Source: a virus. From it: a DNA stretch of 45,429 nucleotides. Made by a program: the position numbers and the translations under genes. Position 1 is the first letter of the stretch. Each line of letters begins with the position of its first letter. Shown piece after piece: positions 1,136-45,429 of the stretch. Under the pieces are notes generated by a model. That model was not told the DNA's origin, searched no databases, and saw only the letters and a list, made by a program, of their open reading frames with translations. The DNA lies in IMG/VR virus record IMGVR_UViG_3300027852_000065, positions 1-45,429 of that record, one strand, 5' to 3'.

Positions 1136-2317
1136 TTACTTACCAGTCCAGGTAAAAATCCTTTGACCCTTCTCAGTCACCCTCTCTTTTATTGTTCCCA
1201 TCTTGCTAAGTGTCTCAAGAATCTCATCCATCACAGACAACTCAATGTTTCTAAAGTTAAGTTTTAGTAGTTGTTCTAAACTCAGTTTCCCACTAGTCTT
1301 AAGTTGTGTTAGTACCCTTTCTATCTTCACGGCATTCACGGCTTCTCCATGACCACCAAAAGCGTCTGAGGTTGTCTCTAAGGCGTCTTCAACTAAAGTG
1401 ATAGCTCTCGCTAAATCGTCTATTGTCAAGATCAACTCATTTGAGTAAGCCACCCTTAAAGCCATAGCAGTTTTAAGTGAGTTTATGTGTAACCTTTCAA
1501 GTGAGCCATGTAGTCTTTCATCTTTTGTCTTCTTTATTTTATCCTTAATTGTAGCGTACCAGTCACCAAAATAAGCTTCTGTTCCTTTACCCCAACTGAA
1601 AGGACCTTTCAACATAGCTATAGCGTTAAGATCGTGAAGTAATAATTTTCTTAATTCCTCATCAGGTTCTGGAGGAATAGCTATCCATTTATACTTCTCA
1701 TAACCATAAAGAATTACAAATCTCGTCGTAAAACCTCCTCCTATAGCTTCAGGTGGAAGGTTCATTGAGAACCAAGTAGGTGTCGTGGCTATAAAGCAAG
1801 TAACACAGACGCCTCGAACAAAATCTTGACCCTCGCCTGATGTTTTATAATCCCATTGATCTGCTGAATCATAAAGATCTGTAAGAACTTCAATCATAGC
1901 TTTAGGATCAATGGCTAAAAGTGAGCTCATTTCTTTTGATACAATAGCTAAAGGGGCTTGTACCATGTTTTTTCCCTCAAGTTCAAAGCTCTGTGTCTTA
2001 GAAACAGCGACAAGTTCTTTTGTCAACGCCCTTTTGGAACTCGAATCTACTGCTGTTGGTATTTCTATCTCCTGCAAGAGCTTTTTAGCTAAAGAAGCAG
2101 GAGAACCTTTTCTGCATTTACCTGGTGGAGCTACGATTAACACATAGAGATTAGGGTATAAATTATCTAAACCATAAGGCAACCAAACTCGCCTTTGCAA
2201 CGTTGAGCTTAGGGTGAATAGGCCACTCCACATCCAAAAGTGCCTTGGTGACTCTGTCTCTTCCACAAATTCGGCCAGACTCTCTAACCAATTTTCCAGC
2301 TTTCTCGAATTTTGCAT
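1136..2317 (-). CDS. Helicase/primase-type ATPase with atypical P-loop (DUF3987-like)
   Basis: 393 residues. The N-terminal part contains LYVLIVAPPGKCRKGSP at about residues 57-73. This sits where a Walker A loop is expected but lacks the normal GK[ST] ending. APLAIVSKEMSSLL (about 123-136) resembles a Walker B strand and CFIATTPTWF a sensor strand. The C-terminal 60 residues look like a winged helix. The arrangement recalls DUF3987-type phage replication ATPases that act as helicases next to a family A polymerase. The gene starts at an ATG overlapping the polymerase stop (TAATG), so the two are translationally coupled and probably work together at the fork. Exact family membership is uncertain. 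Confidence 0.6.
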   Translation of the reverse strand: MQNSRKLENWLESLAEFVEETESPRHFWMWSGLFTLSSTLQRRVWLPYGLDNLYPNLYVLIVAPPGKCRKGSPASLAKKLLQEIEIPTAVDSSSKRALTKELVAVSKTQSFELEGKNMVQAPLAIVSKEMSSLLAIDPKAMIEVLTDLYDSADQWDYKTSGEGQDFVRGVCVTCFIATTPTWFSMNLPPEAIGGGFTTRFVILYGYEKYKWIAIPPEPDEELRKLLLHDLNAIAMLKGPFSWGKGTEAYFGDWYATIKDKIKKTKDERLHGSLERLHINSLKTAMALRVAYSNELILTIDDLARAITLVEDALETTSDAFGGHGEAVNAVKIERVLTQLKTSGKLSLEQLLKLNFRNIELSVMDEILETLSKMGTIKERVTEKGQRIFTWTGK

Positions 2318-4791
2318 TATTCATTTATCTCCTCCAAGTCGCCCCAGGAAGGACCAGTTTTAAAATCGCAAGGAATAATAAGTTCTCTTCCGTGTATCTG
2401 CAGAGGAATAGAAAGCCTCTTTCTTATGTCTTTTATAGCCCTTGGGATATCTTCCTTCTTCAGTTGAACTATAACCTCATCGTGAACATTAAGAAGAGGG
2501 TTAACGTAATCCATCTTGGCGTGAATCTTTTGGATACCTTCTTCAAGAATCTCTCCTACTGTGCTTTGAGGTACAAAGGCTACACCACTAGCAAAGAGAC
2601 TTTGATCTAGTCGGCCTCTAAAGACTCTTTTTCTTTTAAAAGGCTCGGGTGTTATAAGCGTCCTTGTCCTTTTCAAAGTTCCTATTGTTTTCTGCTGCCA
2701 ATTATGTATCATAGGACTCTTCATTTTGCGTGCTGTAAGCATTTGTTTACAAACCTTCTCTTCGAGATAAACTTCTTGGCGAACCAAAATAGTCTGTAAC
2801 ATTCTGTGCCCCATGAGATAATTAGAGGCATGAACAATAGTTTTAGCCAGATCTCTAAAAAACTTTAGTGGATGTTTTTGGCTGGTGAAAGGATCTCTAT
2901 AAAGCTCTGTCTTTACATATTCCCGTTCTCCTGGAATACCAAATATACTTTTAGCGTTTTCCCAGTGACAATCTTTGCCAACTAAAAAATCGTTTATTTG
3001 CTTTATATCCTCAGCTAGCCAAGCTACGACCATAGCTTCTGCTTGAGCCAAGTCGCAGGCTAAAAGAACTAAACCAGGATCAGGAACAAAAAGCTTCCTC
3101 ACCATCCTTCCTTCTTCGGTTCTTACAGGAATAGCCTGGAGATTACCCCCACCTCCAAAGTGACTTTTAGAGGAGTTCAAGCGAAAAGTTGAGACAAGAG
3201 AATAAGAAGTCCTAGCCCTATTGTCTTCTCCGAGTTCCATAGAAGCATAGGTCTGAGATAGCTTACTAAACTTTCTATAATCTAGCAAAGCTTTAAGAAT
3301 CTTATTATCAGGGAAGGCTCTTTTAAGTTTATTCAAAGCGTCTCTATCTGTTGAAGGTTTTTTTGTCTTATGATGATACTGAATAGGCATACCTAAATAG
3401 CCATAGATTAAACGGTTTACTTGTTGAGAAGAGTTAAGGTTTATATCCATTAAGCCTGGTCCAGATTCGTCATTAAAACTTTCTTTGATAGTCCTTTCTG
3501 CCTCAGCCGCTCTTGAATCAAATTCAGCTTGTAATTTAGCTTTATTCTCCTTGTCTATTTTAACCCCTCTAATTTCCATACCGAGTCTACTACCTAACTG
3601 ATCCATTGTCCTTCTATAGCCCAACCATGTCGACTCTTCTTTGGCTATATTCTTAACGATAGACCAAAGCTCGGCTGTTACACAACAGTCTTTGCCGTTA
3701 TAGAGAAACTCAGCCTCATCACTAACCCCAGTAGTCATGCTTATTTTTCGTTCGTCTTTATAATAAGGCTCCCATGTATATAGAGAAGTAAGCATATTTA
3801 AAGACTTGTACATAAAAGGATAAGAGGCATGATGACAAAGCATTGTATCTTCGACACTGCCAGGAGCACAAACTAGATTATAATATCTTCCAAGTACGCC
3901 AAGGTCATAAGCGGCGTTGTGAAATACTTTCTGGACTGAAGGATTTCGAAAGAGCAAACTTATCTCGTACAGAATCTTTGCCTCTTCTTTAGAAGACCAA
4001 CAGAACTTTCTATCCTTCAAGAACGGAATCACAAAACCTTCTAAAGGATTTGAAGCAAAACCTATACACCATAGGATGGGTCCAGCGTGAGTTACTACAG
4101 TCTCAATATCACAAGCGACCATAGGGGCATGGCCATAAGTTCGGAGTTGACTTACCACCTCTTCGCAGGTTGGATTAATAACATGCGATCTTTCTAAACT
4201 AGGAACCTTTCCTACCTTACTTAAATAGTCAATTCTCTGTAGGTCTAAAAGAAAGACAGGCATGATATTGTCTTGCTGCTTTTTCTTTTCTCCCATCAAA
4301 GCTTGTCGAGGCTCTTGTTGTAACCTCATGACATGGCTAGGGTGGTATGTGGGATAAACAAGAAAACCTTCAGCCAGAGTACAGGGAAGAACAGTGCCTC
4401 GCCATTTGTTTATCCTTTTTCTTCCCGTCAAAACTTTCATAGCTGTAGCACCTAAAGCGCATATAACTTTTGGGCCATCTTCAAGACGGATCTGCTCTAA
4501 CCATTCTCGCAGAGCTTCTATATGCTCCTGACCTTCTGCCGTTGGTTGGGTCCCCTGATAGTAATACTTAACACTATTCTTTGGGGGCCGTTGAGAAAAA
4601 ACATTTGTTATCAAACAATCACTTCTATTTATTCCAACATTCTTAAGACAGCTATTTAAAAGTCTGCCTGCACCCCCCTTAAAAGGCTCAAGTGCCTCGT
4701 CTTCTTCTGCTCCTGGGGCTTCGCCAATAAAAAGAAGCCTAGCATCAAGAGGCCCCATAGGAGGAACAATACTACTTGTTAGTCTTTGCAT
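2317..4791 (-). CDS. polA: Uracil-DNA glycosylase / DNA polymerase I fusion
   Basis: 824 residues with three modules. Residues 1-200 match family 4 uracil-DNA glycosylase: GEAPG at 23-27, a PFKGGAGRLL segment, and YHPSH near 150. The usual N-terminal CxxC of the Fe-S cluster is absent. Residues about 220-400 are a 3'-5' exonuclease with CDIET, HNAAYD and a final acidic motif. Residues about 400-824 are a family A polymerase: motif A DLAQAEAM, motif B R-x3-K-x3-H-x3-Y, and motif C VHDE. Position 762 (E. coli numbering) is His rather than Phe/Tyr/Leu. The protein should be the replicative polymerase, with a built-in uracil-recognition domain. The SD AGGAG stands 6 bases before the ATG. Confidence 0.9.
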   Translation of the reverse strand: MQRLTSSIVPPMGPLDARLLFIGEAPGAEEDEALEPFKGGAGRLLNSCLKNVGINRSDCLITNVFSQRPPKNSVKYYYQGTQPTAEGQEHIEALREWLEQIRLEDGPKVICALGATAMKVLTGRKRINKWRGTVLPCTLAEGFLVYPTYHPSHVMRLQQEPRQALMGEKKKQQDNIMPVFLLDLQRIDYLSKVGKVPSLERSHVINPTCEEVVSQLRTYGHAPMVACDIETVVTHAGPILWCIGFASNPLEGFVIPFLKDRKFCWSSKEEAKILYEISLLFRNPSVQKVFHNAAYDLGVLGRYYNLVCAPGSVEDTMLCHHASYPFMYKSLNMLTSLYTWEPYYKDERKISMTTGVSDEAEFLYNGKDCCVTAELWSIVKNIAKEESTWLGYRRTMDQLGSRLGMEIRGVKIDKENKAKLQAEFDSRAAEAERTIKESFNDESGPGLMDINLNSSQQVNRLIYGYLGMPIQYHHKTKKPSTDRDALNKLKRAFPDNKILKALLDYRKFSKLSQTYASMELGEDNRARTSYSLVSTFRLNSSKSHFGGGGNLQAIPVRTEEGRMVRKLFVPDPGLVLLACDLAQAEAMVVAWLAEDIKQINDFLVGKDCHWENAKSIFGIPGEREYVKTELYRDPFTSQKHPLKFFRDLAKTIVHASNYLMGHRMLQTILVRQEVYLEEKVCKQMLTARKMKSPMIHNWQQKTIGTLKRTRTLITPEPFKRKRVFRGRLDQSLFASGVAFVPQSTVGEILEEGIQKIHAKMDYVNPLLNVHDEVIVQLKKEDIPRAIKDIRKRLSIPLQIHGRELIIPCDFKTGPSWGDLEEINE

Positions 4792-5058: not shown

Positions 5059-5069
5059 TTCGACCTCCT

Positions 5070-5092
5070 AAATGGTTACAATGTGTGTATTT
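5070..5092. promoter_or_regulatory. 23-bp palindrome, site 1 (upstream of DUF3850 gene)
   Basis: Half-site AAAT-N4-ACA, central A, then TGT-N4-ATTT. It overlaps the end of the preceding gene and ends 11 bases before the ATG of the minus-strand gene 4801-5058. The flanking CCTCCT (plus strand) is the SD of that gene. Confidence 0.8.
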
Positions 5093-6034: not shown

Positions 6035-6389
6035 TTTGAGTGTCCTCCGTCTCCTCTAGAATAGTAACATAAATAACACTAAGGTTGAGTAATTGAGCTC
6101 TTTTAAGTTCTTGCCTTATTCCGTCGCTTTGTTTCCAGCCAGGCAATAAAAGAACTTCCATATTCTCCATGCGACCAAGAAAAGCGAAGTTTGCTTGGGC
6201 AAAAACAGAAAAATCAACTTCCATCTTATATTCTCTAGCCATAGGATGATAGTAGATAATAGGAGAAAAGTAAACAACATCTCTTTTAAGTGCTAAGTAG
6301 ACAAATTTCCTTACTCGCTCATATCTTTCCTGCATAACAACCTCAGAAACGTGCGTATAAGGTGAGGCTAAATAGGTTATCTCTCTCAT
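6009..6389 (-). CDS. Nucleoside 2-deoxyribosyltransferase-like protein (DUF1937)
   Basis: 126 residues. The N-terminal YLASPYTH, the mid-protein SPIIYYHPMA, and the late LLPGWKQSDGIRQELKRAQ follow the DUF1937 / nucleoside deoxyribosyltransferase-like pattern: a Rossmann-like fold with a GW.xS.G..xE substrate loop. In phages such enzymes are linked to nucleotide salvage or base exchange. The gene overlaps the methyltransferase stop by 4 bases upstream and the exonuclease start downstream, indicating coupled translation. The last 15 residues look like a tail outside the domain. Confidence 0.75.
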   Translation of the reverse strand: MREITYLASPYTHVSEVVMQERYERVRKFVYLALKRDVVYFSPIIYYHPMAREYKMEVDFSVFAQANFAFLGRMENMEVLLLPGWKQSDGIRQELKRAQLLNLSVIYVTILEETEDTQNVRYSIRP

Positions 6390-7945
6390 TTCTCATTCTC
6401 CTCGTAATAGGTTTTAGCAAACTCCAACATATCTTCTTGGTCCTCTGGAAAGCTTCTCCAATGTTTTGACCATTCAGGGGTGCTCGGAATAAGCTCTTTA
6501 AAATCTCCTTTTTCCTTCTTTGGAAAAGTAAAAGCTGTTTTATCATTAAGTAAATTATGATAACCCATAACAAGATTGGCTAGAGCCAGATTACAATGAT
6601 CTTCACTCATTTCTATTCCTGTCCATTCGAGAGCTAACTCTCTTTGAAGAACCTCTATAGCCACACCAAGCATCCCACTACCTATCATAGGGTCAAGGAC
6701 TTTATCTCCAGGCATAGCAGATCTTTGTAGTAGCTTTAAATATAGATCAGGATGTTTAGCTGTCGGATGGCTTTGCTTAAGTTTAGCTGTCATCATAGGA
6801 GTGATAATCATATCTGCCACACCTTTCTCAGCTAATACCTTTTTACCTTTCCTGGCATAGGCTATAGGTTCATAGGATCTTCCTGGTTCCAAGTCCGTCT
6901 GTCTTTGCGTATGAGCTCCTTTCTTGTGCCAGATTGTAGGTATTCGAGAAACCTGAAATCCTGTTGCCTCTAAGGCGTCATAGACTACCTGGATTCTTGT
7001 AATAGGGAAAAAGACATACAAATGAGAATGTGTGGCCATTTTACTGTATATAAGTTTAAATTGATTCAACAAGAAAATCTCAAATTCCTGTGCCGTCATA
7101 GCTTCGTCATTTATAGCGTTCTTATTTGCCCTATCTCTAGCCATCCTATCATAGTCCACTCCCCAAGGAGGGTCGAAAAAGACTATATCAAAAGATTCAT
7201 CAGGAAATGTTGGAAGAATATCTTCCATTGTCCCATTTATTAAATGTTTTTTATATTCTTCAAGTTGTGTATCTAACATACTTTCGGCTGTTACCTCAAC
7301 CTTTTCTGTCTTTTCTTTCTCTTGAATTCTTTCTGTTGCTTCGTCTAATCTTTGCTTTCTGATAAAATTTTCATTTAATCTCTTAACAATTTTCTTTGCC
7401 TCAGCCTCGGTGCTGGCTTCCTTTACTTCGTCATAACTCTCAGCAAATACCGAGAGTTCTATGGCCTGCGAAACCTTACTCGGGCTAAAATTAACCAGTT
7501 CTGCCGTATCTTTTATGCCATGACCACCAGTTCTACCTTTCCCTGCCACTCCCTTCTGTTCTTGTTTTAAAGCATGCAATTTACGTATAGCGTTGTTTTG
7601 CTCTAACCAAGAAAGATCGACCCTATGAGTATTCTCTTCAAGTTGAATCTCCTCTAAAATTATCGGATCTGTTTCATGCTCTAGCATAAAGAGAAACTCT
7701 TGACCTAATAAGCTACAGGCTCGAAGTCGCCTTTCTCCAAAAACAAGAATCAGCTTATCCCCATCTTTACAGCAGACACCAGGAGACTTTTGACCTTTGT
7801 CTTTTATAGAATCAGCCAGTCTTCTAATCTCCTTTGAACTAAATTCTCGCCTTTGTCTGCCTTCTAGAACAGTTATATTTTCTGGGCTACTGGAATATAC
7901 CTTATTAGTCTCCTTCAAAAGTTCTTGGTTCTCTACTTCTGTCAT
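6386..7945 (-). CDS. ParB-like / DNA methyltransferase fusion
   Basis: 519 residues. Residues about 25-180 are a ParB/Spo0J-type domain: a partition-like LADSIKDKGQKSP segment, VFGERRLRA, and a helix-turn-helix AELVNFSPSKVSQAIEL. Residues about 235-480 are an amino-methyltransferase of the beta order: DPPW (motif IV, near 258) comes before DPMIGSGMLGVA (SAM-binding motif I, near 423). DPPW methylases act on exocyclic N4-cytosine or N6-adenine. The ParB part probably gives DNA sequence targeting. No restriction partner is visible, so an orphan methylase protecting phage DNA is the best reading. Confidence 0.88.
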   Translation of the reverse strand: MTEVENQELLKETNKVYSSSPENITVLEGRQRREFSSKEIRRLADSIKDKGQKSPGVCCKDGDKLILVFGERRLRACSLLGQEFLFMLEHETDPIILEEIQLEENTHRVDLSWLEQNNAIRKLHALKQEQKGVAGKGRTGGHGIKDTAELVNFSPSKVSQAIELSVFAESYDEVKEASTEAEAKKIVKRLNENFIRKQRLDEATERIQEKEKTEKVEVTAESMLDTQLEEYKKHLINGTMEDILPTFPDESFDIVFFDPPWGVDYDRMARDRANKNAINDEAMTAQEFEIFLLNQFKLIYSKMATHSHLYVFFPITRIQVVYDALEATGFQVSRIPTIWHKKGAHTQRQTDLEPGRSYEPIAYARKGKKVLAEKGVADMIITPMMTAKLKQSHPTAKHPDLYLKLLQRSAMPGDKVLDPMIGSGMLGVAIEVLQRELALEWTGIEMSEDHCNLALANLVMGYHNLLNDKTAFTFPKKEKGDFKELIPSTPEWSKHWRSFPEDQEDMLEFAKTYYEENEK

Positions 7946-8220
7946 TTCTTTTCTCCTGATGTGATAGACTTTAGTTTGTCTACACTCACGCCTAATTCTT
8001 GGGCTAGTTCAGTTAGAGCTAACTGCTTAATTTTAGTTAACTTTTTCTGAGTTAATTTAGCTTCCCCTCTTTTCTTTAAAGGTTTCCTCGACCTTGAGGC
8101 TCTCCAATCAATTAAAAGTTTTGTCACTCTTTCTCGTTCAGGCATCACAATTTGCTCAACTATCTCCTCCAAAGTTAAGTCACTTGGATTTGGTTTAAGC
8201 ATTCTTTTTAAGCTGTCCAT
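7942..8220 (-). CDS. Hypothetical basic helical protein
   Basis: 92 residues, very rich in Lys and Arg in the centre (WRASRSRKPLKKRGEAK), with a C-terminal LTELAQELGVSVDKLKSI that resembles one helix-turn-helix. It overlaps the ParB-methyltransferase start by 4 bases, so the two are translated together. It may be a DNA-binding accessory of that enzyme. That is inference from context only. Confidence 0.6.
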   Translation of the reverse strand: MDSLKRMLKPNPSDLTLEEIVEQIVMPERERVTKLLIDWRASRSRKPLKKRGEAKLTQKKLTKIKQLALTELAQELGVSVDKLKSITSGEKK

Positions 8221-8959: not shown

Positions 8960-8994
8960 TTTAAACTCCTCTGTTTAAAGGTTAATAAACTCGC

Positions 8995-9017
8995 AAATGG
9001 TTACAATGTGTTGATTT
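8995..9017. promoter_or_regulatory. 23-bp palindrome, site 2 (upstream of SSB-like gene)
   Basis: AAATG-GTT-ACAATGT-GTT-GATTT, flanked by AAACTC on the left and AAGTTT on the right, which extends the symmetry. It stands 35 bases before the ATG at 8959 on the minus strand, farther than in most other sites. Confidence 0.8.
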
Positions 9018-9085
9018 AAAAGTTTACATGATATCACCTCCTATTCTTTTTTAATTCTCGCCAAAGCATCAGTCCACGCCACATC

Positions 9086-9281: not shown

Positions 9282-9926
9282 TTACTCTTGCTCATCATCT
9301 AATACTTCAAACCTACCGTAGCCACCACTACCTCGCCATTGACCAAGTCCTACAAAAGTGCCGTAATATAAGATTTCTTTTAATACCTTCCAAGTAAGAC
9401 CTTTGCTATTTTTAATAAGCTCTATATCAAAAATAATAACTCTTCCAGCTTTTACATGATCACTTTTAAGCAAGGCAACTCTTGGGCCTTTTGGTGTTAT
9501 AGTACGAATAGGCCTAGTAAGCTCACCATCTGGTTTTTGAAGATAAGTATTAGTATCTTCATCACTAAAACGTAACTTTCGTGGCTTAACAAAAACCAAA
9601 AGATCTATCCATTTTTTATATGCGACAATTTTGTTTATAGCTCCTGATGCCATAGCAACTTCACAACCACATTTCAGAAATCCTCGGAGCATATAGTCAT
9701 AAATAAAAATACCTTGCTCATCCGAATGAAATCCTGTAGCTCCCTTCTCTCCCGTATCTTCTACAGTTTCCATCTCTTCTTTTAGCTTCTCTACATCCAA
9801 GTTATCCTCTTCTTTTAGATGCTTAGACAGAACGAACTTCCTATAAACTTCAGCATCTTTGGTTACAGTCCCTAAAAGATCCTCAGTTAATTTTATTGCA
9901 AACTTCTTACGCTCTGTTTTTATCAT
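9282..9926 (-). CDS. Conserved-looking phage protein with C-terminal Gly-rich loop
   Basis: 214 residues. N-terminal KKFAIKLTEDLLGTVTKD and a mid-part DLLVFVKPRKL look beta-rich. The C-terminus reads VGLGQWRGSGGYGRFEVL: a G-x-G-x6-G-x-G-x-F pattern like the glycine-rich loop that ends ferredoxin-like RAMP domains. One Cys pair (CGC) occurs near residue 92. The start overlaps the Sak4-like gene by 20 bases, so the two are co-translated and a role in recombination or processing of nucleic acid is likely by context. I do not claim it is a Cas protein. Confidence 0.6.
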   Translation of the reverse strand: MIKTERKKFAIKLTEDLLGTVTKDAEVYRKFVLSKHLKEEDNLDVEKLKEEMETVEDTGEKGATGFHSDEQGIFIYDYMLRGFLKCGCEVAMASGAINKIVAYKKWIDLLVFVKPRKLRFSDEDTNTYLQKPDGELTRPIRTITPKGPRVALLKSDHVKAGRVIIFDIELIKNSKGLTWKVLKEILYYGTFVGLGQWRGSGGYGRFEVLDDEQE

Positions 9927-10716
9927 TTTTAGTCCCTTTCGTCTTAAATCGTTTTTCCCAAAGAAGCCTGAATCCTGCTGGCTCTTTATTTAAATCTACT
10001 CTAATAGGATCATTCCAATTTTTTCCTTGACTATTCAAAGTACTTTTTAAAAAATCCCATTTGCCTGTGCCAGAAGTATTCCAAAAATACTCTGTCTTTT
10101 TATCCTCACTGTCTTTTCTCCAACAAAAATAGCTCTCATTGAACCAATTAGGTATATCCGTCCTCATTTTTCCTGTAGCCTTCGGCAGATATTTAAGTCC
10201 GCCCATCTCTTCATCCTCTATGATCTCTAAGTGCATAGCAAGACCATAGTGAATAGGGAGACTTATATAAGACTTAATATGATCGGCTACTTTTACCATT
10301 TGAGGTAGATAATGTTGCATTGCTGGAACACCACCGAGACCTCTTTTAGGGTCCAGCAACAAACACCAACGCATACAGATAGATAAGAGACTCGACAAGC
10401 CATCTTCAATAACAGAGTCATAATCGAAAGTCTTGTCTTTTACCTTCTTAACTATCTCTTTCCTTATTTCTTCAGCCATTGTCCAGGCTTTAGGTGACAA
10501 AGGGTCTGGATGCTCGCAAGGAAGGACATCTACATTAGGATAGCCTTCATACGTCTCTTTTCGTCCATCATAATCTATGACAAGTATATTTCCAGGCATA
10601 GTTGTAAAACCTGTTGACTTACCTGATCCTGAAGGACCTGTTAAGGCTACTTTGATTTTGTAATTCTCAGATAGTTTTAAATCTTTTGCTGGTATAGCAT
10701 TTGCTAGATGGTCCAT
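9907..10716 (-). CDS. Sak4-like RecA-fold ATPase (AAA_24), single-strand annealing
   Basis: 269 residues. Walker A GPSGSGKS at 27-34, then ILVIDYDGR near 44-52. YDSVIEDGLSSL at about 100-110 serves as Walker B. HYGLAMHLEI and PKATGKM provide the later conserved strands of the PF13479 / Sak4 group. These ATPases promote single-strand annealing together with a phage SSB. The SSB-like gene two positions downstream fits this. The ATG at 10716 has a GGAG-type SD (AAAGGAGAAATAAAA). The gene continues into the next one with a 20-base overlap. Confidence 0.8.
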   Translation of the reverse strand: MDHLANAIPAKDLKLSENYKIKVALTGPSGSGKSTGFTTMPGNILVIDYDGRKETYEGYPNVDVLPCEHPDPLSPKAWTMAEEIRKEIVKKVKDKTFDYDSVIEDGLSSLLSICMRWCLLLDPKRGLGGVPAMQHYLPQMVKVADHIKSYISLPIHYGLAMHLEIIEDEEMGGLKYLPKATGKMRTDIPNWFNESYFCWRKDSEDKKTEYFWNTSGTGKWDFLKSTLNSQGKNWNDPIRVDLNKEPAGFRLLWEKRFKTKGTKNDKNRA

Positions 10717-11191: not shown

Positions 11192-11202
11192 TTTCCTCTC
11201 CT

Positions 11203-11225
11203 AAATGGTTACATTGTGGCGATTT
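11203..11225. promoter_or_regulatory. 23-bp palindrome, site 3
   Basis: AAATG-GTT-ACATTGT-GGC-GATTT. On the minus strand it ends 11 bases before the ATG at 11191, and the SD GGAGAGG fills the gap. GC-rich element B ends about 20 bases upstream. Confidence 0.8.
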
Positions 11226-11244
11226 AACAGTTTTATGTTATGCC

Positions 11245-11391
11245 GCTCCTCGCCTACCGAGCCTTTTTACCCCCGTTTCTCGTTTAGCCTCAACCGAGCT
11301 TCTCCCTTGAAGGCGGAGAGGAGGCCTCGGGCGTGGTTACGTCTCCGGCCTTGCGTCCGCAGCAAGCTGCGTCCGCTCGCCCTTTTTATAC
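11245..11391 (-). repeat. GC-rich interspersed element, copy B
   Basis: It begins directly after the stop of the zinc-ribbon gene (11386) and is far richer in G and C than its surroundings. On the minus strand it carries a GCAGCTTGCTGC hairpin, then the shared core GACGTAACCACGC, CCTTCAAGGGA and AAGCTCGGTTG. Copies A (11610-11740, opposite orientation) and C (inside terL, 21371-21505) share these blocks in the same order. Stops occur in its frames, so it is probably non-coding here. Confidence 0.75.
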
Positions 11392-11565
11392 ACTATTTCC
11401 TCTTCGGGTATTATATATCTCGTCTCCGCATACAGGGCATATTGCCTTAAAAAGGTATGAGCCGTCTCTTAGATCGAGTGTTACTTGTACATCCTCCGAG
11501 GGCAACAAACGAAATCCAGAGTCTTCACATTTGTCACAATACAGGTTATAAAACTGAACCTCCAT
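11386..11565 (-). CDS. Zinc-ribbon miniprotein
   Basis: 59 residues from the ATG at 11565, which has a TAGGAGGTG SD. The open frame reaches further upstream, but that part is only read-through of the palindrome and GC-rich element A. Cysteine pairs YCDKC (8-12) and CPVC (44-47) are spaced as in a zinc ribbon. The final residues are DEIYNTRRGNSV. This gene is enclosed by GC-rich elements A and B in inverted orientation. The role is unknown; binding of nucleic acid or a protein partner is typical for the class. Confidence 0.65.
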   Translation of the reverse strand: MEVQFYNLYCDKCEDSGFRLLPSEDVQVTLDLRDGSYLFKAICPVCGDEIYNTRRGNSV

Positions 11566-11578
11566 AATCACACCTCCT

Positions 11579-11601
11579 AAATCGTTACATTGTGGGTATT
11601 T
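11579..11601. promoter_or_regulatory. 23-bp palindrome, site 4
   Basis: AAATC-GTT-ACATTGT-GGG-TATTT. On the minus strand it ends 13 bases before the ATG of the zinc-ribbon gene, and the SD AGGAGG lies in between. Element A starts 9 bases beyond its other end. Confidence 0.8.
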
Positions 11602-11609
11602 AACTCGTT

Positions 11610-11740
11610 TTGCCTGTCGAGCGGCGGAAGGTGCTTCAGCGCCGACCGACGCCAGACGCAACCACCCTCGGAACCCTCCTCCCTTAAAGGGAAAAGCTCG
11701 GTCTGCGGTTACAGGCAAGCCGAGGGTTAAACAGCTCGGT
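11610..11740 (+). repeat. GC-rich interspersed element, copy A
   Basis: It is bounded by an 8-bp inverted repeat, TTGCCTGT at 11610-11617 and ACAGGCAA at 11711-11718. A further similar stretch (CCGAGGGTTAAACAGCTCGG) extends to about 11740. The core AGACGCAACCACCC, CTCCTCCCTTAAAGGGA and AAGCTCGGT aligns closely with copy B and in part with copy C. Orientation is opposite to B. No convincing open frame is present. Confidence 0.75.
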
Positions 11741-11747
11741 TGTTGGA

Positions 11748-12026
11748 TCAGGACAGGTCAAGAAGGCTAGCGTTACTAATAGCTATATCTAAAGTCTTTA
11801 ATGTCTTTACAAGTTCATTAACTTTTAAGCAAAGTTGTGTATAGGTATAACTTTCTCCTAAGGTTGTTACCTTTGTAATGGTTGCTGCATAGTCGATTGC
11901 TGGGATCTTCTGGCCTATCTCTAGTTTATCTGGAGCTTTACCATTGACAGATCTTAGTATCTCGTTGGCCTCGTCTTTAGTTGCAGAAATCAGGCAACCT
12001 TTGTTCGTTTTTGCTATAATTTCCAT
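11748..12026 (-). CDS. Hypothetical protein
   Basis: 92 residues, not recognised. The beta-like N-terminus (MEIIAKTNKGCLISATKDEA) and a C-terminal helix end in KTLKTLDIAI, the same eight-residue LKTLDIAI found at the end of the MazG-like protein at 420-740. The SD AAAGGAG lies upstream of the ATG. Palindrome site 5 stands 33 bases before it. GC-rich element A follows its stop. Confidence 0.65.
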   Translation of the reverse strand: MEIIAKTNKGCLISATKDEANEILRSVNGKAPDKLEIGQKIPAIDYAATITKVTTLGESYTYTQLCLKVNELVKTLKTLDIAISNASLLDLS

Positions 12027-12059
12027 TCTATTTCTCCTTTTTTGTGTGTATTAACTCTT

Positions 12060-12082
12060 AAATGGTTACATTGTGTGTATTT
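12060..12082. promoter_or_regulatory. 23-bp palindrome, site 5 (longest arms)
   Basis: AAATG-GTT-ACATTGT-GTG-TATTT, with the outer symmetry extended to AACTCTTAAAT on one side and ATTTAAGAGTT on the other: 11 perfectly paired bases. It lies between the minus genes 11748-12026 and 12104-12412. Confidence 0.85.
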
Positions 12083-12103
12083 AAGAGTTTTCATAGATTA
12101 ATC

Positions 12104-12426: not shown

Positions 12427-13341
12427 CTAAACTACCTTATCTGAGTCTCTTTCCCAGGGAGTCCATTTATCTCTCCAGGTATAGAATTGTGAAAAGTCAT
12501 ATTCAGAATCATCTGAATTTTCAGGATCTATTCCTGATAGACAAAGTGTCAGGTAAGGACAAGGTGACTTACCTATACCACCTGAGCATTGCATATAGAC
12601 ACGTTCACCTATCTTAGGCCACGTCCAGTGACTCCATTGATTTCTTAATGAATCAGCTATAAGAATAGTATCTTTTATAAAAGATTCTACATAATGATCT
12701 TCACGCTCTTCAAGCTGTCTATGATACATGGCTGAAGGCTCTTTGCGTTTACGCTTCGAGCATATGTTCATAAGAATTCCGAAAGGTTTTTCGTTTAAGA
12801 GCTGCCATAAACCCCAATAATAGCCTGTTACTTGTGAGGCTGTCTTCCATTGCTCCAGGTAAGAGGTTGTTATATAGTTTCCTGTTGTTTTGTCTTCTCG
12901 GCTTAGGATGCCATAACCAGGCCATTCTATATAGGCATCTAAAGCCCCACCATAGTTAATAGATGTTCCTGGAATAGGGAAAAGAAAACCAAGTTCGTAA
13001 CCCACCTGGTTCCAAGGATCGAGACCCTCATATTCTTTGACATAGCCTTTAAAGAGTGTTTCCAGGTTATCCCAATTATTTACCTTGTCCTCATCCATAA
13101 AAGGACTTTGTTCCCATTCTTTTAAGCCCGCTTGAAGGGACTCTTCAGGTGACTTGCCCTCATGCCAGTTCGATATGACTATCCCCCAGGCTCTGCCCCA
13201 AGAAAAGTAAGCTGGTTCAGTGGCGGGTGTTAGGCCTCTTAAAAACCAGTAAGCTGAACGCTGACAAGAACAATACTGACTTATGATAGTGTTATCAAAG
13301 TTTTCTGGAGGTCCATTTTTATAAAAATCTTGGTTGTTCAT
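12427..13341 (-). CDS. RecB/Cas4-type PD-(D/E)XK nuclease, probable Fe-S exonuclease
   Basis: 304 residues. QYCSCQRSAYW at residues 22-32 and the late CSGGIGKSPCPYLTLC provide the Cys set that binds an Fe-S cluster in Cas4/AddB-like nucleases. GGALDAYIEW near 131-140 and ILSREDKTT about 10 residues later are the D...(D/E)XK catalytic core. SYLEQWKTASQVTGYYWGL follows as the helical Q-x-x-x-Y motif IV. The expected activity is single-strand-dependent exonuclease, giving substrate for the Sak4-like annealing system downstream. It probably takes the place of a lambda-type exonuclease. Confidence 0.8.
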   Translation of the reverse strand: MNNQDFYKNGPPENFDNTIISQYCSCQRSAYWFLRGLTPATEPAYFSWGRAWGIVISNWHEGKSPEESLQAGLKEWEQSPFMDEDKVNNWDNLETLFKGYVKEYEGLDPWNQVGYELGFLFPIPGTSINYGGALDAYIEWPGYGILSREDKTTGNYITTSYLEQWKTASQVTGYYWGLWQLLNEKPFGILMNICSKRKRKEPSAMYHRQLEEREDHYVESFIKDTILIADSLRNQWSHWTWPKIGERVYMQCSGGIGKSPCPYLTLCLSGIDPENSDDSEYDFSQFYTWRDKWTPWERDSDKVV

Positions 13342-16145: not shown

Positions 16146-16251
16146 GTTAAATATTTCGTGCTTTCGTGTTCGTCGTTGCCCATATTTCATAAACCCAACC
16201 AATTCTACGTGAGGCCCCGGCCCCGCCCTGAATCAGTACGGTATAACTCTT

Positions 16252-16274
16252 AAATGGCCACAATGTACGCATTT
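16252..16274. promoter_or_regulatory. 23-bp palindrome, site 6 (orphan)
   Basis: AAATG-GCC-ACAATGT-ACG-CATTT with ACTCTT and GCGAGC flanks. Unlike the others, no start codon follows on either strand. It lies between the terminator and the cassette 16452-17070, in the gene-free region. Confidence 0.75.
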
Positions 16275-17818: not shown

Positions 17819-19282
17819 ATGAACAAAATAACCAAAAAGTTTTTCCTCCAAGATCAAATAGCCTCAGCTTTAGGGCATTTGCCCAAGGGTCTAAGAAAGC
17901 CAGCCGGGGCAATTGCCTCTATAGGTCTTGTGGGTCCGGTTATTGCCCAAAGATCTTTCGAGCATGGGGCTCAGTTATTAAAAGACCTGGTTCATGTTAT
18001 GGACAAGCCACCTTCTCGATACACTCTAGAAGATATAGAGAAGACTATGGCCTTAACGGGTCTAGGAGTAGGTCTAGGTGCTCCAGCCGGTCTACCCGCA
18101 GGAGCTGAGGGCGCAGGCATCTTACGAGGCATGTCTAAGACCAAGGCTCGTGAGGTCAGAAGTCTAATGCGAACAGAGGCTAAAAGCAGAGGCCCTCTAA
18201 CAACAACCTCCTCAGATCCAAATTGGTTTTCTCAAATTCTCCGGGGCACCTGGTTCCACGGCAGAGGCACTTATCCTAAAGAAGGCAAAACCTTCAAAGG
18301 TTCTCGGGAACAATCCCGTAACTTAGGTGAACCTACAGGGATTTCATTAACGGCTGACGCAGAGAAAAGTACTTCTTTTCTACACCTCTCTAAGCCCAAG
18401 GAGAAGATTCGAAATGACTTAATAGCTCAGCGACAGAAAGTGTTGCTGGAACTTGTAAGAGAGGGGGAATCTCCAAAACTACGTAAAAAATACAACACTT
18501 TAGTAGATGCTCAAAAAAAACTAGAACAAGCCACATACAAACCAGGACGAGTTCTTCCAGAATATAAAGGAATTCCTGAAGACAAAATCCTCCAAGGATG
18601 GAAGGGTGGGAGAGACGAAAAGATTCTCCGAGATACTTATGCCGAAACCTTTGAGAAGTTGTTTCCGAAAGATGTGTTTGAAGAAGTCAAGGTAGGATTA
18701 AAGGCAAAAGGGGAAGTTGTTTCTACTTTCTTGAGAGGACAAATTGGAAACAATCCGGAGCTTAGAAAAGTTTTTAATGAGTCATTAACAGCTAATCTAC
18801 AAAAAAAAGGCTACAAAGGACTGCTTTATTCTCCGAAGCGCCTCAATGAGTATGAGTTAAAAATCTTTGATCCCGCTGATGTGCGGATGTTAGACAGACG
18901 AGAAGTACTCTCGCCCGTTTCTTCAATACGTAAGTTTGATATACAAAAGTCAAAGACCCCGCAAATGCGGCTTTGGAAGAGTCAAGTAGACGAATCTAGC
19001 GCATCTTTAAAAGATATTTATAAGGATATAGATCTAGGGGATCTTTTACTTAAAAGCGAGGCTCGGGCAAAACAACCCACAGGTGAGTCTTTAGCCTCTT
19101 CTTTTAATAGGAGTTACTCAGGTAACGCCCTCAAATTCGATGGCAAATACCCTGATTTTGATGTCTATCAGTTTACGCCTCAGTCAGGGAAGATGAAAGG
19201 TGTGACTTTTGTTACCAAGGAATTGACCGAGGAAGCCCTTGAAGCGGGCTATCAGCGTAAGCTTAAGGAGTTTGGTATTTAA
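17819..19282 (+). CDS. Putative ADP-ribosyltransferase-like protein, first late gene
   Basis: 487 residues. Residues about 143-180 (TWFHGRGTYPKEGKTF, then GISLTADAEKSTSF) and about 330-358 (KKGYKGLLYSPKRL, NEYELKIFDPADVRML) follow the order of ART-like domains in phage polyvalent proteins: a YHGT-like start, a G[IL]SLT.D...A strand, and a GY.G(I/L)-(x)-E-Y-x-x-F-(D)-P end. Between them is a Lys-rich helical insert. The N-terminus has a Gly/Ala-rich, weakly hydrophobic stretch. There is no SD before the ATG, and the promoter at 17781-17809 predicts a leaderless mRNA. It may be packaged and delivered with DNA to modify host proteins. Family assignment is by pattern only. Confidence 0.5.
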   Translation: MNKITKKFFLQDQIASALGHLPKGLRKPAGAIASIGLVGPVIAQRSFEHGAQLLKDLVHVMDKPPSRYTLEDIEKTMALTGLGVGLGAPAGLPAGAEGAGILRGMSKTKAREVRSLMRTEAKSRGPLTTTSSDPNWFSQILRGTWFHGRGTYPKEGKTFKGSREQSRNLGEPTGISLTADAEKSTSFLHLSKPKEKIRNDLIAQRQKVLLELVREGESPKLRKKYNTLVDAQKKLEQATYKPGRVLPEYKGIPEDKILQGWKGGRDEKILRDTYAETFEKLFPKDVFEEVKVGLKAKGEVVSTFLRGQIGNNPELRKVFNESLTANLQKKGYKGLLYSPKRLNEYELKIFDPADVRMLDRREVLSPVSSIRKFDIQKSKTPQMRLWKSQVDESSASLKDIYKDIDLGDLLLKSEARAKQPTGESLASSFNRSYSGNALKFDGKYPDFDVYQFTPQSGKMKGVTFVTKELTEEALEAGYQRKLKEFGI

Positions 19283-19291
19283 AAAGCTCCT

Positions 19292-19314
19292 AAATGCGCA
19301 CAATGTAACGATTT
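19292..19314. promoter_or_regulatory. 23-bp palindrome, site 7 (upstream of terminase small subunit)
   Basis: AAATG-CGC-ACAATGT-AAC-GATTT, 23 bases before the ATG at 19338, with a separate AAAGGAC SD in between. It lies just after the ART-like gene's stop. Confidence 0.8.
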
Positions 19315-19337
19315 AAAAGAACCAAAGGACAAGACTC

Positions 19338-20046: not shown

Positions 20047-22053
20047 ATGGACTACCCTAAGAACATGACAGCAAACCTTGTTTGGCGAAGGAAGCTTCTT
20101 CTTAAAGCCGCTCAAGATGCGGAGTTCAGGGCTAAGCTGACTCGTCTCTATCATGAGGATATTCTATTTGCCTTCAATGCTTTTTACTATACCTTAGATG
20201 TCAGAAAGAGACCAGATCACAATATACCTTTCTGCACCTATGCTTATCAGGACAAAGCCATCTTAACCATTCAGCAGCACATAAAAGAAGGTCGAGATCT
20301 TCTCATAGAAAAATCTCGTGATATGGGTGCTACATGGATGATCTTAGCTTGTATCTTTCACTCCTGGCATGCCCCTGAAGGTGGTGGGGATTTCTTACTG
20401 GGTTCTAGGAAAGAAGACTATGTAGATAAGAAAGGAGATATGCGAACGCACTTTGCTAAGGTCAGGTATCTTTATAAGAGACTTCCTGTTTGGCTCAGGC
20501 CGGCAGGCTTTAACCAGCGTGCTCATGACACCTTCATGAAGTTTCAGAATCCAGTTACAGGTTCCTCGGTGACAGGTGAGAGTAACAACCCCAATTTTTC
20601 TACCCAGGGTCGTTATGCCGCTATCATGTATGACGAGTTTGCTAAGTGGGAGAACAGCGATGAAGCAGCTTGGACGGCGGGTGGTGACGCTACACCATGC
20701 CGGATAGCCCTAAGTACGCCTTTCGGAGCGGGCGGTCAATACTATTCCCTGGCCATAGGTAAGAAGCTTAAGGTGCTTAGGCTTCATTGGAGCCTACATC
20801 CTGAGAAGGCTTTGGGTCTTTCTTGTGTTTGGCCCCCGCCCAATGAGGAGACAAAGAATGAGTTGGGGGATAGATGGAGGCCCAAGGTAAGGCTTACGTC
20901 CCCTTGGTACGACCGAGAGTGTAACAGAAGAACGGCTAAAGAGGTTAAACAAGAGTTAGATATAGATTATTTGGGCTCGGGTGATCCTGTCTTTGATGGG
21001 AGAGCATGGGACAATCTCATGCTTTATCATGAATTAGAGGATAAGCCGAAAGCACTTGGTAGGCTTAGGGTTGAGGACTTCGGGGTAAGCTGGGTGTCGG
21101 AAGATGAGGGCTTTGATTTTGCGGGAACCCTGATGGTCTATGAATCTTATAATCCTAAGGCCTACTATTGTGCTGGCGTAGATGTAGTAGAAGGTGTCGA
21201 AAACGGCGACTACGCCACCATAGTTATCTACAATAGGATAACAAAAGACGTCGACGCCTTCTACTACTCTAGAATAGACGAGCTTGGATTGGCCAAGGTA
21301 ATTAAAATTATAGATAGACTCTACGGTGGGACCGGGTTCGATGACTCGGTCTATGCGGACAGCCCTACTAGTGCGACGGACGGCTTGCCGGCCGGTGCGC
21401 CGAGCGAAGGCCGTGGAAGACCCACCCACGCTCACGTAGACTCCTCCTTCAAGGGACCTGGCTCGGTTGGTCTTGAGGGGCTCCAGGCCGAGGCGTCCAG
21501 GGCAACGGCAGGTGATCCAGGCGAAGAAAAAGGCCCTTGGTGGGGTATAGAGACGACAGGACCAGGATTGTCTACGTTTGATAAAGTGCAAGAGTTAGAT
21601 ATAAATAATCTGTTTATGGCCCCAAGATTTGATGTGGTAAAGGGGGGTGTGAGCTACAAGAAAGGTTGGAGAACAGATACTAATTCTAGAAATGAGCTTG
21701 TTTCAGGAGTTCGAGAATGGCTAAATGATGGTGCGGGGAAGTTAAACTCAGGAAGACTTTGCGGCGAGCTTATGACTTTTGTGCGAAGTAAGACAGGTAA
21801 GCCTCAAGCTAAGAGTGGTTGTCATGACGATGCCGTTATGGCCTTTGGTATAGCTATTCAAGTAGACCAGATTGTCCCGTTAGATGAAGAAGAAGTGAGG
21901 ATGGCTGTAGCACAAATGAGGGATTTTGTACAGACTCCTTTGGAGGACGTTAGATTAGACGAAGTATCTAAGACAGATGAAGATTATTGTATGGATACAG
22001 TGTTACAAAGGATCGCCTCAAAAGTAGATGAGACCTTTTTTGATATGTATTAA
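20047..22053 (+). CDS. terL: Terminase large subunit with GC-rich in-frame insertion
   Basis: 668 residues. The ATPase domain has the Walker A variant EKSRDMGATW (about 90-99) and Walker B IMYDEFAKWE (about 197-206). The RNase H-fold nuclease has GVDVVEGVENGDYATIV (about 378-394) and the final HDDAVMAFGIA (about 597-607). It pumps DNA into the capsid and cuts it. Residues about 429-497 (21331-21537) interrupt the nuclease between LYGG and WWGIE. This segment is rich in Gly, Pro and Ser, coded by strikingly GC-rich DNA, and contains element C. It has no stop, so it is either translated or removed by splicing or bypassing. Confidence 0.9.
   Translation: MDYPKNMTANLVWRRKLLLKAAQDAEFRAKLTRLYHEDILFAFNAFYYTLDVRKRPDHNIPFCTYAYQDKAILTIQQHIKEGRDLLIEKSRDMGATWMILACIFHSWHAPEGGGDFLLGSRKEDYVDKKGDMRTHFAKVRYLYKRLPVWLRPAGFNQRAHDTFMKFQNPVTGSSVTGESNNPNFSTQGRYAAIMYDEFAKWENSDEAAWTAGGDATPCRIALSTPFGAGGQYYSLAIGKKLKVLRLHWSLHPEKALGLSCVWPPPNEETKNELGDRWRPKVRLTSPWYDRECNRRTAKEVKQELDIDYLGSGDPVFDGRAWDNLMLYHELEDKPKALGRLRVEDFGVSWVSEDEGFDFAGTLMVYESYNPKAYYCAGVDVVEGVENGDYATIVIYNRITKDVDAFYYSRIDELGLAKVIKIIDRLYGGTGFDDSVYADSPTSATDGLPAGAPSEGRGRPTHAHVDSSFKGPGSVGLEGLQAEASRATAGDPGEEKGPWWGIETTGPGLSTFDKVQELDINNLFMAPRFDVVKGGVSYKKGWRTDTNSRNELVSGVREWLNDGAGKLNSGRLCGELMTFVRSKTGKPQAKSGCHDDAVMAFGIAIQVDQIVPLDEEEVRMAVAQMRDFVQTPLEDVRLDEVSKTDEDYCMDTVLQRIASKVDETFFDMY
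21371..21505 (+). repeat. GC-rich interspersed element, copy C, inside terL
   Basis: It shares with copy B the ordered blocks GCGA-GGAC, CTTGC, GAAGGCCG/CAAGGCCG, CCACGC, CCTTCAAGGGA and GCTCGGTTG. Flanking terL sequence has normal composition. The exact ends are uncertain; the protein-level interruption spans 21331-21537. Confidence 0.7.
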
Positions 22054-44802: not shown

Positions 44803-44851
44803 ATCTAGATACTAGAGTTTTAACGTCAAGTCTAGTATCTAGATCTTTTTT
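44803..44851. terminator. Bidirectional intrinsic terminator
   Basis: ATCTAGATACTAGA (44803-44816) and its exact complement (44831-44844) form a 14-bp stem with a 14-base loop. On the plus strand it is followed by CTTTTTTAC, and on the minus strand by TTTTTAG. It separates the converging late transcript and the minus-strand hydrolase gene. Confidence 0.85.
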
Positions 44852-45429
44852 ACTTGAGGTCGAACAATTCTTTATGCAAAAACCCTTCAAATATAATCTC
44901 CCAGTTCTTCCACCTGTGCCATTCATCACTTAATGTATCTGGAGTTGTTCCAGTGTACCACTTATGTCTGGGCCAACAATAACCACCGGAGTCTTTACGT
45001 CCTACTTTTAAGTAAGCAGTATAAGAAGCCAGAGCTACAAGCTCAGAGCAGACAAGAAATTTACCTTTGAAGGTTAGGTACTTAGCTAAAGGTGGTATTA
45101 GTTGAAAAGGTAATCTGTAACCTGGATACCATTTCCCTTCTCTCTCCCGAACTAATTCGTCAATAATCCCCCTCCAGGTAGGAACCGAGACCATATTACA
45201 CCGAGCAATAACAACCCTCTTCCCCTCATAAGCCTCAAATAGATTTTGTCGTTTGTTGGTCCAGAGGGCCTCGAAAGTAGTTCCCTCTCTGTCCAAAATA
45301 ATCCCTGCGTGAGAGTAGGTGGATTTACCATCTCTAGAGATGACCGTCTGAACAGCATTAATGGCTCGACCTAAAGCCATAGGATTTCTAGTAGCAAATT
45401 GATCCCCTACTTGGAGTCTATAGGGCTCA
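44850..45429 (-). CDS. Permuted papain-like (YiiX/NlpC-P60-type) hydrolase, N-terminus cut by window end
   Basis: 193 codons visible; the frame is open to the right edge, so the internal ATG at 45380 is not the start. The left-end copy indicates about 16 further residues. GDQF, then YSHAGIIL (catalytic His) and the later FLVCSELVALA (catalytic Cys) give the permuted NlpC/P60 order His-before-Cys. The last third is Trp-rich (PRHKWYTGTTPDTLSDEWHR). Probably a cell-wall or lipid amidase/esterase used for lysis or entry. It ends at the bidirectional terminator. Confidence 0.75.
   Translation of the reverse strand, partial: EPYRLQVGDQFATRNPMALGRAINAVQTVISRDGKSTYSHAGIILDREGTTFEALWTNKRQNLFEAYEGKRVVIARCNMVSVPTWRGIIDELVREREGKWYPGYRLPFQLIPPLAKYLTFKGKFLVCSELVALASYTAYLKVGRKDSGGYCWPRHKWYTGTTPDTLSDEWHRWKNWEIIFEGFLHKELFDLK
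45055..45429. repeat. Right copy of imperfect terminal direct repeat
   Basis: It pairs with 1-375 in the same orientation, same length, no gaps, about 83% identity. At protein level about 16 of 110 residues differ, many of them conservative. Confidence 0.85.

Follow-up and report, generated by a model that had tools for sequence, protein, structure and literature searches.

Phage genomes are under strong pressure toward compactness, and to our knowledge short non-coding insertion elements have rarely been described in them, the mycobacteriophage mobile elements (MPMEs) being the clear precedent. The locus described here raises the question of whether a phage carries dispersed copies of such an element. 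An earlier note had drawn attention to two GC-rich stretches facing opposite ways around a small gene, and to a third copy within terL, which encodes the large terminase subunit. The window, meaning the whole virus record of 45,429 bases, is a tailed phage from environmental DNA; it is a bacterial virus, with genes for a P22-type portal, TerL, a major head protein and a Sak4-like annealing protein. Two composite proteins are encoded on its minus strand: a DNA polymerase A bearing an N-terminal uracil-DNA glycosylase domain (2317-4791), and a ParB N-terminal-like domain joined to an N6/N4 DNA methylase (6386-7945). No near relative was found among GenBank phages. IMG/VR holds a clear family of the phage with 44-62% TerL identity, and long synteny in several records; these TerL relatives were retrieved by alignment query, single-sequence searches with TerL and the head protein having returned none. 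Among genome bins, the best match is to a Nitrospirae contig (L129), itself possibly a mis-binned phage.

A 120-bp scan of the 45 kb revealed exactly three GC outliers, with 60-69% GC against 40%, at 11241-11400 (0.63), 11601-11760 (0.62) and 21321-21580 (0.69; window mean 0.40). The copies A, B and C located in these islands, with their parts and the genes that separate or contain them, are as follows.

11236-11386, minus strand: copy A, occupying the whole interval that runs from the stop codon of gene 11386-11565 to the operator-like site beyond it, recognised as a GC island and by homology to B and C
11260-11344, minus strand: shared core of copy A (AGACGTAACCAC ... CCTTCAAGGGA ... GCTCGGT ... 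GCT)
11353-11376, minus strand: hairpin H1 of copy A, with stems of 3 bp and 5 bp separated by a GA/GA internal loop, and a CUUG loop at the tip
11386-11565, minus strand: orphan gene of 59 amino acids between A and B, with only weak zinc-ribbon-like matches
11604-11747, plus strand: copy B, occupying the whole interval from operator-like site 11576-11604 up to the stop codon that ends gene 11748-12026, recognised as a GC island and by homology
11625-11648, plus strand: hairpin H1 of copy B, of like shape, with a UUCA loop
11654-11736, plus strand: shared core of copy B
20047-22053, plus strand: terL, 668 amino acids, whose nuclease domain hosts copy C; assigned from PHROG terminase matches and the IMG/VR relatives
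about 21331-21513, plus strand: copy C, a 183-bp in-frame insertion encoding 61 amino acids (TerL residues 429-489), missing in close TerL relatives and homologous to A and B; its edges are uncertain by a few codons
21371-21400, plus strand: H1-like hairpin of copy C, placed as in A and B, with a CUUG loop, weak (pair probability about 0.37)
21418-21503, plus strand: shared core of copy C

Alignment of A with B in opposite orientation extends over 91 bp at 73% identity (E 7e-10), with a score of 57 against 16.6 +/- 2.5 in dinucleotide-preserving shuffles, and the blocks that the earlier note had listed (AGACGYAACCAC, CCTTMAAGGGA and AAGCTCGGT) do recur in the same order in both. With +1/-1 scoring, A and C score 28 (shuffles 11.6 +/- 1.9) and B and C score 26 (shuffles 11.0 +/- 1.8), and all three pairs score above their 1000 shuffles; the third copy inside terL is real. 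The top score to the copies elsewhere in the window is 20. Because composition-matched shuffles are exceeded and the rest of the window falls far below, the shared blocks are not a by-product of GC composition, of the kind that random GC-rich sequences might share. A, B and C are nonetheless mutually diverged by 27-40%. A covariance model of A and B (R1) proposed a fourth copy at 45198-45315 on the minus strand (21.8 bits), which was rejected as ordinary coding DNA: it lies within the conserved gene 44850-45380, for which nine relatives show no insertion and none resembles A. This stretch scores 121 against A (shuffled best 82 +/- 7), and since A is the only copy that matches it well, the similarity is likely due to chance.

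Copy C offers the most direct view of an insertion event. TerL residues 429-489 have no counterpart in any of the 29 distinct relatives (44-62% identity), in which the site is thus empty and does not hold conserved coding sequence, while the flanks (LYGG before, DPGEEKGPWWGIETTGPGL after) align closely; without copy C, the TerL loop would have its usual length of about nine residues. The insert has a GC content of 0.67 and keeps the reading frame. In an unbiased screen for inserts that took in 20 window genes, of which 19 could be aligned with sufficient relatives, nucleotides 21331-21513 were the sole window-specific stretch of more than 12 residues, the only other of at least 12 being one of exactly 12 amino acids in gene 17819-19282. 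By profile, the homology of C to A and B runs from about 21361 to 21527 and coincides with the insert. In an AlphaFold2 model based on the TerL alignment, residues 432-493 have pLDDT below 50, and lie between a confident helix (412-427) and a strand (498-502) that ends at the invariant IETT glutamate. The model is only moderate overall (mean pLDDT 65.5), so it backs, but falls short of proving, the view that copy C encodes a disordered TerL loop.

The conserved features of the copies are a hairpin and the core. The 5' parts of A and B align without gaps in MAFFT, and all eight H1 pairs are kept, five of them with changes on both sides; when the partner strand was slid by 1-3 columns as a control, pairing fell to 13-56%. 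The H1 regions (51-54 nt) fold better than shuffles (z -2.4 for A and -2.7 for B), while whole-element folding energies are ordinary. Stems that change while pairing is kept point to present or past selection on the fold, whether in RNA or in single-stranded DNA; this pattern, from one comparison of two sequences, would be hard to obtain without it. A long helix closing the core (P2) pairs in 76% of cells and does not beat shuffles, and hence no claim is made for it. No gene and no terminator was found inside A, B or C. Read in the frame used by TerL, B contains no stop and A is interrupted once, close to its 3' end. All that the peptides have in common is H-x-R ... K-G, with 1-nt indels downstream, and this is too little to separate peptide from DNA conservation. 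A conserved sense or antisense peptide was likewise considered and set aside, since open frames are present and do not by themselves establish coding.

On balance, A, B and C are probably diverged copies of one GC-rich non-coding insertion element of about 145-185 bp that is moved in trans. Their occurrence at three loci and in both orientations, the lack of a gene, the hairpin and core, and the tolerated positions together fit a non-autonomous element, and an element without a gene of its own would have to be moved by an enzyme acting in trans. It is tempting to suggest that the element is built around the conserved hairpin and core, and that an enzyme supplied by the host or by a co-resident element reads either the structure or the core. 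Copies would then persist where harm is least: A and B exactly in the space that separates a stop codon from the operator-like site beyond it, and C in frame in a TerL loop, where the protein would tolerate a disordered segment of 61 residues. The divergence of 27-40% does not have the look of a recent burst from one master in the phage. Taken with the uniformly high GC, it suggests that the copies came separately from a diverse, foreign GC-rich family.

The earlier note had described copy A as bounded by 8-bp inverted ends, which was not borne out, the longest inverted match being 5 bp (P about 0.67). Across A, B and C there are no terminal inverted repeats above chance (longest matches 4-6 bp, P 0.28-1.0), nor target duplications above chance (direct matches 4-6 bp, P 0.41-1.0), the edges being placed only to within a few bases. 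A scan of roughly 30 proteins of the window identified no transposase, RAYT, TnpB, reverse transcriptase or homing nuclease. The BLASTN and covariance searches proposed in the earlier note were carried out, and at the sensitivity used gave no kin in phages or in the bacterial genomes searched. Blastn of the elements against GenBank phages and PLSDB plasmids found none, and B and C gave only chance-level short matches, and no similarity to MPME sequences, among 50,697 phage records. Exact block patterns found no kin of A, B and C in IMG/VR or in one genome per GTDB species. The A+B+C profile, applied to all retrieved relatives, and the covariance model, applied to relatives, found no further copies. 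With the covariance model nothing rose above chance in 77 Nitrospirota genomes, 285 Omnitrophota genomes and 331 genomes from the phylum to which a deltaproteobacterial bin belongs. An origin in Nitrospirota or in the last phylum was accordingly rejected, as was one in Omnitrophota, where four matches (E 0.003-0.009) among the 285 genomes are the expected number and lack H1; pattern matches in viral contigs L008-L012 and L213-L225 were also put down to chance. Exact patterns are blunt for copies diverged by 27-40%, so that absence elsewhere is only partly covered and sensitivity bounds each of these negatives. With no copy in any other genome searched, movement between genomes was not observed.

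These searches bear directly on the strongest alternative, namely that a diverse, GC-rich repeat family of the host, similar to REP/BIME, was the source of A, B and C, each a fragment captured through illegitimate or Sak4-mediated recombination; the family would be mobile in the host and the phage merely its recipient. The high GC of the copies in a phage of 40% GC and their strong divergence fit separate captures, the phage has its own gene for a Sak4-like annealing protein, and a close relative carries an unrelated GC-rich inverted pair of its own. On the other hand, neither some 700 genomes from three phyla nor the GTDB-wide pattern scan yielded a host copy, and to catch one family three times would require that it be abundant. 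We consider this explanation rather unlikely. Of the earlier suggestion of a small mobile or host-derived element entering phage genes, what the in-frame position of C, the 29 empty relatives and the shuffles uphold is a small interspersed element that enters such genes. Its mobility as such is only probable, and the searched genomes and the GTDB scan lend host origin no support.

The pair in the close relative (contig L033) consists of a GC-rich island (up to 0.71) with an inverted partial copy, 846-916 and 1097-1167, 75% complementary, lying between that phage's own operator-like palindromic sites (AATGTTTCATTnnATGAAACATT) and without sequence similarity to A-C. Another relative (contig L041) has two GC-rich islands (0.66), at 6381-6545 and 7961-8085, with GGCCAAAGGCC and hairpin motifs; they are not clearly similar to one another or to A-C. 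There are thus hints that such inserts recur within the phage group with unrelated sequences. A bolder proposal, which we regard as unlikely, is that the copies belong to a new class of structured elements that pass from phage to phage, are recognised by hairpin shape over sequence and enter essential genes in frame, relatives carrying analogues of unrelated sequence such as the L033 pair.

The setting of A and B invites a different explanation. Each occupies the gap from a stop codon to the next operator-like site of about 25 bp, of the form TAAAT-n-GTTACATTGTG-n-ATTTA. Operator- or promoter-like sites (TAAATGGTTACATTGTGnnnATTTAA) occur at 5064-5092, 8989-9025, 11200-11228, 11576-11604, 12059-12091, 16242-16274, 19291-19315 and 29487-29518, on both strands, close to where a number of early and late genes begin, and probably serve a phage regulator as its binding site. 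Synteny is best in two relatives, where about 0.4 and 0.2 kb separate the orthologues of 9907-10716 and 12427-13341, compared with 1.7 kb in the window. No relatives of the small genes next to A and B were found in those two phages, and since this entire module of small genes is lacking there, no exact empty site can be named for A or B. The gene between them, described in the earlier note as a zinc-ribbon gene, is present, with zinc-ribbon-like matches that are only weak, and it is no part of the element. A and B might be functional structured RNAs, for 3'-UTR processing, attenuation or regulator binding, that the phage has kept, with C a stray copy in terL. Such a role would agree with the H1 covariation, the stable-type tetraloops, the GA internal loops and the placement between stop codon and operator-like site. 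However, A and B are opposite in orientation relative to transcripts, just two of the operator-like sites have an element, no terminator-like site is present, and the third copy lies within coding sequence; nor does Rfam yield any family or intron match at gathering score, the best being Fibro-purF at 18.3 bits against a cut-off of 60. A dedicated RNA function therefore appears improbable.

Still less credible is that C is removed at the level of RNA, translation or protein, by self-splicing, translational bypass or protein splicing, and that TerL is made without it. A structured element in an essential gene might lead one to expect this, and a foreign loop near the catalytic centre would seem costly; but C is open and in frame over 183 bp, which removal would make needless, it resembles no intron in Rfam, whether of group I, group II or another type, it is too short for an intein, and A and B lie in non-coding DNA. 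That the regions are nothing more than normal coding or intergenic DNA, or arose in assembly, and are alike in composition only, might be entertained for short regions in a metagenomic record, and is highly implausible given the shuffle controls, the empty sites in 29 relatives, the intact reading frame, and the occurrence of the copies at three independent positions, each with its own flanks.

If A, B and C are copies of a trans-moved insertion element, as we favour, several known systems offer comparison. REP and BIME elements, which are associated with RAYT transposases, are small hairpin elements that often occur as inverted pairs in the 3' region of genes. The copies resemble them in being small hairpin elements, with an inverted pair lying 3' of genes, and differ in having about four times the length of a REP, in the lack of a RAYT among the phage proteins scanned, and in the location of one copy inside a gene. 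The GC clusters of yeast mitochondria are structured, GC-rich inserts of an AT-rich genome that occur in intergenic positions and also within a gene whose reading frame they keep; unlike the present copies, they are organellar, shorter and present in hundreds. Miniature elements of the MITE type are likewise short, non-coding, multi-copy, probably trans-moved and mostly intergenic (PMC10969869), and the three copies, with no gene inside, similarly lack a transposase of their own. Terminal inverted repeats, target duplications and a parent transposon were, however, not detected, and as the first two were looked for and not found, the copies are not classed as MITEs.

A close parallel in anatomy, as the earlier note had proposed, is with the Rickettsia palindromic elements (RPEs), which are interspersed, hairpin-forming elements of about 150 bp found between genes and, tolerated, in frame within protein genes (PMC10969869). 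The likeness extends to size, interspersion, the hairpin, intergenic and in-frame sites and an apparently tolerated insert, and is strengthened by copy C, whose insertion keeps the reading frame and whose site is empty in 29 relatives. The copies differ from RPEs in being phage-borne, GC-rich relative to their genome and only three in number, and in having no whole-element palindrome, no proven conserved peptide and no known sequence family. As the likeness is one of anatomy, and the peptide similarity is too slight to decide on a shared peptide, they are not classed as RPEs. MPME1 measures 439 bp; its copies are identical, its left inverted repeat is defined, and 6 bp are added at its target (PMC3029335). 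Like MPME1 and MPME2, the copies are very small, phage-borne and recognised by empty sites in relatives (PMC3029335); unlike those of MPME1, they are diverged, measure about 145-185 bp and have no end repeats above chance.

If the trans-moved element is real, its in-frame entry into an essential phage gene would extend to viruses the idea, developed for RPEs, that such elements are a source of new protein segments. It would also provide a concrete system in which to look for the agent that mobilises elements of this kind, and to ask how a nuclease that acts in DNA packaging may tolerate a foreign loop of 61 residues about nine residues before a conserved strand of its catalytic domain.
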